From positions 33,310,710 through 33,374,709 of the forward strand of contig NC_079222.1 in NCBI RefSeq assembly GCF_029633865.1: a DNA stretch of 64,000 bases. Direction: 5' to 3'. Each line of letters begins with the position of its first letter. Position 1 is the stretch's first letter. This document shows positions 53,901 through 56,900 of the stretch, piece by piece. A program made the translations under genes and the position numbers. The notes beneath the pieces were generated by a model. The model did no database searches. It saw nothing but the letters and a program-made list of their open reading frames with translations, and was not told where the DNA came from. This DNA comes from Lampris incognitus. Its lineage: Eukaryota; Chordata; Actinopteri; Lampriformes; Lampridae.

Positions 53901-56900
53901 GGTAACTTAATCTGTATGACCTTTATTTGTTTATGTATTTATTTAAGAAGAGTGCATTTGTAATACTTTTTAGAAGAGAGCCTGCAGCAGTGGTCCCATG
54001 TTTGCCATGGAGTCTCCACACTGGCAGTGGATGAGCCTCAAATTACAGAAGCATTGTTGTGGGGAGCTGCATCTTAGTGGCGGCAAGGCTCTGTCTCTGT
54101 TTGTTTGTGATTGTGGTGACGTGTTGGCTTCTCGCTTTATTGTGGGGAACAGATCCAACACAAAAACCCAAATCCCAAGATGACTCTTGTGATTTCAGCG
54201 TTTTTTCCACTAGCTCAAAAAGCCCTCTGTCTGAGCTACCCCTGCAGTGTTTTCTCTAACTTTAAATGGTCGTTGATATTCTCAGTGTGTTGTAATGGAC
54301 CTTATCGGATTTTGGGCAAGTGGAGGGAAGGAGGGGGAAAAAGCGATAAATCAAGAGGACAGAGACGGGCAGTATTGGTTTGCATGTGTGTGCATTTGTG
54401 GTGAAACATCCAGGAGATTGCTGGGTATCAGTATTGCAGGGACACAAAAGCAGACTTCTTGTTTCCAATTAGGGGGAGCTAGCTAACAGGCTAAGTGGGA
54501 GAGATGGCTAAGGTTGGGTTACACAGCAGCACAGATACACGGGTCAATGTGCCCGTACACGAATGAAAACAACACTTCTGGAAGGTTTTACTAGATGTCT
54601 CTTTTTCTTGCTCTCACATATTGTACGTTGCACAATACACACAAATTGTGATTAATTTTTAAAATCTGCATCGTCCCTCTGTCACCCATGCATTGTGCAA
54701 GAGGAAGCATTTGGATTTGCTTCTCTACACCTGACAGGATTTCAAACAAATCTGCAGTGGCTGGTAGAAACAAACAGGGAGGCCTTTGAGAGATTTGCCA
54801 GTCACTCGGCCCCTTGTTGTATTCTTCCTCTTCCTCTATCCATCTATTTGTTTATTCTAAGTCACGTGATGTTTACAGATCAGTGACAATACTTGCATGG
54901 CTATTCTCCAGATGTTTATGCTGTCATCCCAGTGGCCAGCCAGCCATGACTGAGGATGCCCCAGACTGGGTCTAAAAGGGCTAAGTGAGATAAATGTTGT
55001 CTCTCACAGGATTCAGTCAGAGTTAAGACACTGGTCGTGTTTAGATGTGGATCCTACATATGCACTCGTAGATGCAAACATCCACTCGTGTGAATATACA
55101 CAGTCACACACCCTACATCTGTTACTCAAATGTGTTAAAAATCTTTACTCACAGGCTCAATAACAGCAGGCTCTCCCTTCTGTCCCTTCTCACCGCGGGC
55201 TCCATCAACCTACACACCAAACACACAGACACAAACACAAAATCAGCTCCCTCCTCTTCATCACCTTTATCATCCTCATCATCCTATCCTCCTCATCTTC
55301 ATGATCATGTCTTGGGCATCATGTCCCTCCATTATTTTTCACCTGTCCATAATACTCATCGGTCTCAGCAGGCAGCACTTTGCCCTCTTTGTCTCCATAA
55401 TCCAGGGTTCCATAGTTATCATACAGGTCCTGGTCCAAATCCCCATAGTCAGTGATGTGCTCCTCCTTGAATGCATCCAGATCTGTGTAGTCTCCCTCGC
55501 CGTCCAAACCCAGGCCTGTTCCTGTGGCAATAGACCCACCAGCTCCAGCCCCGGCACTGGCCGATCCACCTCCAGAACTGGAAGATCCTCCCGCTGAGAC
55601 AGAACCACTCCCAGTGGACACAGAACCACCTCCATGAGATACAGAACCTCCTCCAGCAGAACCGGTAGAACTGCTGCTACCTCCTCCTCCGCCACTGATG
55701 TGAATACTACTGCTACTTCCTCCTCCAGCAGTGCTGCTGCTTTCTCCTTCACCACCAATGTGAACCTTGCTGCTGCTACTGCCTCCACCAATGTTGTACT
55801 GGCCCTCCTCACCATACTCATATCCCTCGCTGTAGCTGTCATCATAGGCATTTCCCACCTATGAATACAAGAACATAGAATATATAGAATGAGTGAAAAT
55901 AGAATGAATACATAAAAACAAGTCACTATGAGATAGATGCAAGGATGAGATCTACTTATGATGAGGGGTGCAACAATCCATCGATCTGGATCAGTGATCA
56001 ACGTTCCAATACCATTGATGTAAAGGGAAAATACCGATCCATATAATCATCTTTATGACACGCCTAGGATGGGAAATATTTAAAGCTAAATATCTCTAAC
56101 AGTGTTGTAGTACTCGAGTCCAGGACTCGGACTCGAGTCCGACTCGAGTCATGATTTTCAGGACTCGTAACTTGACTTGGACTTAAACACTGATGACTCT
56201 GACTTGGACTTGGCCTTGAACATTGACTGCATTTGGACTCGGAAGTTGGAGATGAGGACCCGGACTTGTTAATTGATAAAGACTGTTTTTTTTTTAATTT
56301 TGGTTTTTTTTAGTTTTTTTGTTTGGCTATTGTGTCACAAAGTAAATAAACTCCATTTGAAATGGTGACAGCTGTGTCATTTTTGTTTCATGAAGACCTT
56401 TTTTATTTGTATGTCAGCTTTTTTACAGTGCCAGAGTGGAGCACCGGAGCCCATCTTGGAACTCGACTCAGACTCAACCTTGATGACTCGGACTCTCTTT
56501 GAGAACTCGGACTCGAACACCAGGGACTCGAGACTCGACTCGCACTTGAGGTTTAGTGACCCGACTACAACACTGATCTCTGACAGAACTGAGCACACAG
56601 ACAGAAACATGTAAATCCAAGGGGATGAGGCAAAGATGTGCATGGTTTATGTCCATATTTGAAAGGTCATCAAGGGCTCTTTAAATTAATTGATTAAAAT
56701 AAACAAACAAAAAAACAAACAAATAATCTGCACTTACACATGAGAAATGTGGCACTTTATAGTGAACAAAATTAGGTCTATTTTTATTAGAAAGAACAGA
56801 TTGTTTTTTCATTTAACTGTCTGGAAGAGCTCAGTAAGAAAATTGTCAAATCATATTTTAGTTGTTTTTTTTGGGTTGATATAAATGTAACTGGTTGGGT

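Follow-up and report, generated by a model that had tools for sequence, protein, structure and literature searches.

The window, the 64,000-nucleotide stretch of Lampris incognitus DNA analyzed here, holds col5a1 on its minus strand. Exons 5–9 (table 1) all have lengths divisible by three, are in phase 0, and have AG/GT borders; they are numbered by their order in the gene and by the human scheme in the accessible text of PMC3096658. Downstream on the minus strand lie 46 candidate Gly-X-Y exons (981 aa; counted by a mechanical finder, which may have missed some exons) that form the long triple helix, as well as the exons of the C-propeptide. Among the 40 matches listed, the C-propeptide assembled from the window is 88–95% identical to 21 fish col5a1 models; identity is 77–87% for 17 tetrapod models and 72% for two col11a1 models, and the best matches listed, barramundi, Nile tilapia, and turbot, each reach ∼95%. 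The C-propeptide is nearer to alpha1(V) than to alpha1(XI) among these matches, which bears out the col5a1 identity given in the initial annotation, and exon order and composition place exon 8 in the N-propeptide variable region, where it had been assigned. The col5a1 gene surrounding exon 8 is intact. The last TSPN exon is the one part of that domain that falls inside the window, and exons 1–4 appear to lie past position 64000, outside it. Turbot residues 1–199, on the TSPN side, have no match in the window at E ≤ 0.01, as expected if exons 1–4 lie beyond position 64000.

Table 1. Features of the col5a1 N-propeptide arm and its borders in the window.
Feature	Positions	Strand	Evidence
Exon 5, 44 aa, end of TSPN region	59955..60086	-	Open, phase 0, AG/GT; Oryzias sinensis 90.7% over 43 aa
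Exon 6, 37 aa, beginning of variable region, acidic and Tyr-rich	58248..58358	-	Open, phase 0, AG/GT; fish and tetrapod alpha1(V) matches
Exon 7, 126 aa, Ser-rich stretch and acidic Tyr-rich part	57629..58006	-	Oryzias sinensis 37% over 133 columns
Exon 8, 172 aa (516 bp), Gly/Ser exon	55343..55858	-	Open, phase 0, AG/GT; turbot 62% over 111 columns
Exon 8 residues 1-22, acidic Tyr-rich end	55793..55858	-	Composition
Exon 8 residues 23-117, Gly/Ser tract	55508..55792	-	G/S score, composition, turbot identity
Exon 8 residues 24-109, tight core of Gly/Ser tract	55532-55789	-	Composition, G/S score
Exon 8 residues 118-172, acidic Tyr-rich end	55343..55507	-	Composition; resembles tetrapod arm end; lumpfish, shifted frame
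Exon 9, open, 19 aa, GEKGQKGEP, start of minor collagenous segment	55153..55209	-	Phase 0, AG/GT

Other features of the window were also recorded. Two 69-bp AG/GT exons on the minus strand (12319–12387 and 12453–12521) are alternative versions of one 23-residue stretch of the C-propeptide, with 10 of 23 residues identical. They resemble the mutually exclusive exons 64A/64B of COL5A1; their order and phases fit. A sequence spotted by eye at about 58780–59150 in intron 5 bears a resemblance to fish tRNA-derived interspersed repeats. Near the end of the window, at about 63892–64000, two arms seen by eye read as an inverted repeat reminiscent of a small mobile element of the hairpin type. Intron 7, which separates exons 7 and 8, carries GGACTCG/ACTCGAGTCC-type short repeats at 56130–56243, which include a 33-bp unit in two imperfect copies. 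In exon 7, a Ser-rich stretch occupies 57902–57949 (minus strand), and O. sinensis has a longer Ser-rich run at that place. The idea that exon 8 is a duplicate of exon 7 was rejected, since the Smith-Waterman score of 54 fell short of the 58.8 averaged over 300 shuffles. A comparison with viral contigs gave 166 pattern matches, of which 0 were confirmed.

Exon 8 has 172 open codons between an acceptor ending in ...ttgtattcatag and a donor beginning with gtgaaaaa. The coordinates of the in-frame exon proposed initially are exact, and its strand, which had been left unstated, is minus. A further minus-strand frame is also open over exon 8 (55339–56046); it misfits the exon phases and has no turbot match. 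The frame used here is in phase with exons 7 and 9 and matches turbot.

The Gly/Ser middle of some 95 residues described in the initial annotation is real. Residues 23–117 are 69% Gly+Ser, have a net charge of −1, and contain no Pro or Tyr; the blocks GGGSSSS and GGGSVS, named at the same time, are both found in the exon. By composition, this nearly uncharged block does lie between acidic Tyr-rich ends, as had been claimed (27% acidic and 23% Tyr in residues 1–22; 33% and 13% in residues 118–172). In the tight core, 63 of 86 residues are Gly or Ser (32 Gly and 31 Ser), three are charged, and three are Thr. We scored segments in all six frames of the window, with +1 for Gly or Ser and −1 for all other residues (G/S score). 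The core scores 40 over its 86 residues, the maximum for the window. The second-highest segment is the Ser-rich stretch of exon 7, also in col5a1, with a score of 10, and the best scores in 30 first-order Markov simulations of the window were 4–7 (open stretches of at least 60 codons). The composition of the core is far beyond chance. A Pfam scan of exon 8 gave a single chance-level match (E of 0.3; 9.8 bits versus a cut-off of 26.3), and a PDB sequence search with exons 5–9 gave three matches at E of 0.9–1, none meaningful.

At least the 3′ part of the tract has a counterpart in turbot, where model P0003 encodes an in-frame homologue of exon 8. The turbot model begins inside the exon, and the tract was compared over residues 76–117. 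Across these residues, 33 of 40 aligned positions are identical, with two gaps, versus 34 of 52 in the 55-residue acidic end, where identity is reduced near the 3′ end and the model may leave the true exon. Conservation of this 3′ part therefore equals or exceeds that of the acidic end. In turbot, 16 of the 17 Gly are retained, as are seven of the 12 Ser; the other Ser positions are three Ala, one Gly, and one gap, so that turbot has more Ala at Ser positions. These replacements suggest that what is conserved is a Gly-rich, uncharged stretch of small residues, not Ser per se. Homology of the 3′ part implies that the tract predates this species. The initial annotation spoke of a feature "in this fish lineage"; that wording needs qualifying, given the homologous 3′ part in turbot.

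Among the fish col5a1 models compared, turbot is the one species besides L. incognitus with the tract. These are 25 models from 18 species, among the best 120 of 291 matches listed in a search that used the turbot TSPN region as query. An earlier search scored only the 7977 candidates that had the most words in common with the query, and its query region included collagen repeats. Another used a query minus the tract and the Ser stretch of exon 7 (best 120 of 125 matches listed). The latter search and that with the TSPN query were designed not to favor tract-bearing proteins, and their lists largely overlap that of the first. Exon 8 was found in frame in one of the 25 listed models, turbot P0003. 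In lumpfish P0023, the end of exon 8 was matched in a shifted frame (score of 127 versus a shuffle mean of 29.7; reached in 0 of 300 shuffles); judging from this alignment, the end of exon 8 exists in lumpfish and is mistranslated in the model. The remaining 23 of the 25 gave no in-frame exon 8 match, for the most part owing to model incompleteness. Two O. sinensis models include exons 6 and 7. In the fish models inspected, exon 5 often continues into intron letters or a later exon, so that a missing exon in the models is a poor guide to the genomes. Among the 39 arms of more than 90 letters that were retrieved, a set that includes many col11a1 chains and some arms containing intron letters, the G/S score peaks in turbot (10; next 6; median 3). 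Of the paper titles and opening abstract lines listed in literature searches, two of which listed 15 of 81 and 10 of 3,498 papers, none describes a fish Gly/Ser tract of this kind.

Acidic residues surrounding Tyr favor its sulfation. In exons 5–8, 25 of 30 Tyr have at least three acidic residues within five positions, a context in the flanks of the tract that suits Tyr sulfation. An N-glycosylation sequon, NKT, is near the end of exon 7. AlphaFold2 modeled exon 8 with a mean pLDDT of 44 and low confidence throughout, regular structure was absent from residues 1–126, and the two short helices predicted fall within the acidic end; its input was two sequences, in which the first 75 residues were paired with stretches of the turbot model that are unrelated to them. 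The low pLDDT is compatible with disorder, in keeping with the flexible spacer proposed initially, but this is weak evidence for it. As a free chain, 95 residues measure ∼36 nm in contour length and have a span of 5–6 nm (root-mean-square), with an assumed persistence length of 0.4–0.5 nm.

According to the accessible text of PMC3096658, the TSPN domain of mammalian pro-alpha1(V) is released by BMP-1 and the variable region (VAR) comes next, and human transcripts without exon 7 or exons 6+7 accompany an Ehlers-Danlos phenotype, indicating that the arm matters. The retained N-propeptide juts from type I/V fibrils and hinders their growth by impeding the addition of more molecules, and it is held to restrict fibril diameter sterically (accessible text of PMC8547655 and PMC2852846). 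By analogy, the arm would be retained on fish fibrils, and exon 8 is presumably included in the mRNA. We favor, at about even chances, the reading that its tract is an added disordered spacer within the retained N-propeptide arm. In exon 8, ∼100 Gly/Ser/Ala-rich, Pro-free, near-neutral residues precede the acidic Tyr-rich end. The probably flexible tract would make the arm longer and would move the acidic, possibly Tyr-sulfated patches apart with no charge added. The longer arm could in turn influence fibril diameter.

Repeat expansion provides another account, in which short repeats added Gly/Ser codons to a weakly constrained disordered arm and the result was tolerated and is functionless. 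Repeats are indeed left over: self-identity at a 60-bp offset is 0.498, whereas 500 codon shuffles reached at most 0.493, and a 21-bp tandem array, imperfect and 2.7 copies long, is located at 55599–55655. The Ser-rich stretch of exon 7 varies in length and sequence in Oryzias, and the variable region is poorly conserved among orthologues (accessible text of PMC7558312), making tolerance without function plausible. However, most residues and nearly all Gly in the compared 3′ portion are kept in turbot, and mixed Ser codons in the core (18 AGY and 13 TCN) together with perfect triplet runs no longer than 3.7 units (GGA; 3.3 for AGC) indicate that the expansion is not fresh. We infer that the tract originated as an old repeat expansion that is now degenerate; that it is also functionless seems rather unlikely. 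The same short runs and imperfect array lend no support to the suggestion in the initial annotation of length polymorphism through slippage, although it is possible that the length of the tract varies today. An artefact, whether pseudo-exon or assembly error, might be suspected from the second open minus-strand frame and from the proneness of low-complexity DNA to misassembly. Splice borders and phase that match exons 7 and 9, and the homologue encoded in the same frame in turbot, make it highly improbable.

As a further explanation, inclusion of exon 8 could vary by tissue or stage and yield long and short arms, which is compatible with the tract being a spacer. Because exons 5–9 are all in phase 0, skipping would preserve the frame, and some transcripts of the paralogue zebrafish col11a1a skip exon 8 (accessible text of PMC7558312). 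Conversely, skipping of human COL5A1 exons 6–7 is described with a splice mutation, and the control had the wild-type product only (accessible text of PMC3096658). We consider such regulation improbable, somewhat more so than functionless expansion. Alternatively, the tract could bear O-glycans or glycosaminoglycan chains, given the 31 Ser in its core and three Ser-Gly pairs in exon 8. Glycosaminoglycans are attached at Ser-Gly with acidic neighbors, and mucin-type Pro/Thr/Ser domains are rich in Pro and Thr along with Ser. In exon 8, all three Ser-Gly sites lack acidic residues nearby, as does the single one in exon 7; residues 23–117 are free of Pro, and Thr is scarce in the core. Five of the 12 Ser compared are lost in turbot. 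The O-glycan or xylose-type modification raised in the initial annotation is therefore not supported, and a sugar-bearing domain is very unlikely. Retention of Gly in turbot at a higher rate than Ser fits a flexible spacer better.

The spacer reading can be carried further: the alpha1(V) arm of percomorphs may contain, under selection, an entropic spacer of Gly/Ser/Ala, whose length and flexibility rather than charge would set the distance of the acidic, sulfated patches from the fibril and so tune fibril diameter across species or tissues; at present this is improbable. The ∼100 extra neutral residues would make this arm a natural means of separating bulk and reach from charge. At an equal dose of alpha1(V), a steric model would predict thinner fibrils, whereas a pure charge model would predict little change. 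Comparative work is hampered because the arm region is poorly represented in the fish gene models retrieved.

VAR of tetrapod COL5A1 is likewise located between the TSPN region and GEKGQKGEP and encoded by in-frame exons with acidic Tyr-rich segments. Lengths differ. From the SPDC cysteine to GEKG, the arm has ∼358 residues here (18 + 37 + 126 + 172 + 5) versus 210 in painted turtle. Exon 7 and exons 6+7 have 126 and 163 residues, versus 80 and 126 in human (accessible text of PMC3096658). The Gly/Ser tract is unmatched in the tetrapod arms retrieved. When the 55-residue acidic end (residues 118–172) was aligned to the arm ends of four tetrapods, the score was reached by one of 500 shuffles for barn swallow, six for turtle, seven for tiger, and 10 for alpaca, and BLAST searches of 163 fetched proteins, with the whole exon 8 or its end as query, gave no tetrapod alpha1(V) at E ≤ 0.01. 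Given these modest scores and the lack of a BLAST match, homology of the acidic end to the tetrapod arm end is likely but falls short of proof.

The end of exon 8 also weakly matches two col11a1-type chains, P0127 and P0092 (E of 5e-4 and 1e-3). Variable regions of fish clade B paralogues (col11a1 models) are alike in position and in their low constraint, and clade B chains of moray eel (P0064, Gymnothorax javanicus) and silverside (P0067, Menidia menidia) have long low-complexity arms too. In both, the long arms with Lys/Asn/Gly/Pro-rich NGK-type repeats follow CEHYSPDC. These Lys/Asn/Pro-rich arms are basic and of opposite charge, whereas the tract of L. incognitus is neutral Gly/Ser. Relative to these known systems, the tract looks like a lengthened form of a region already known to vary.
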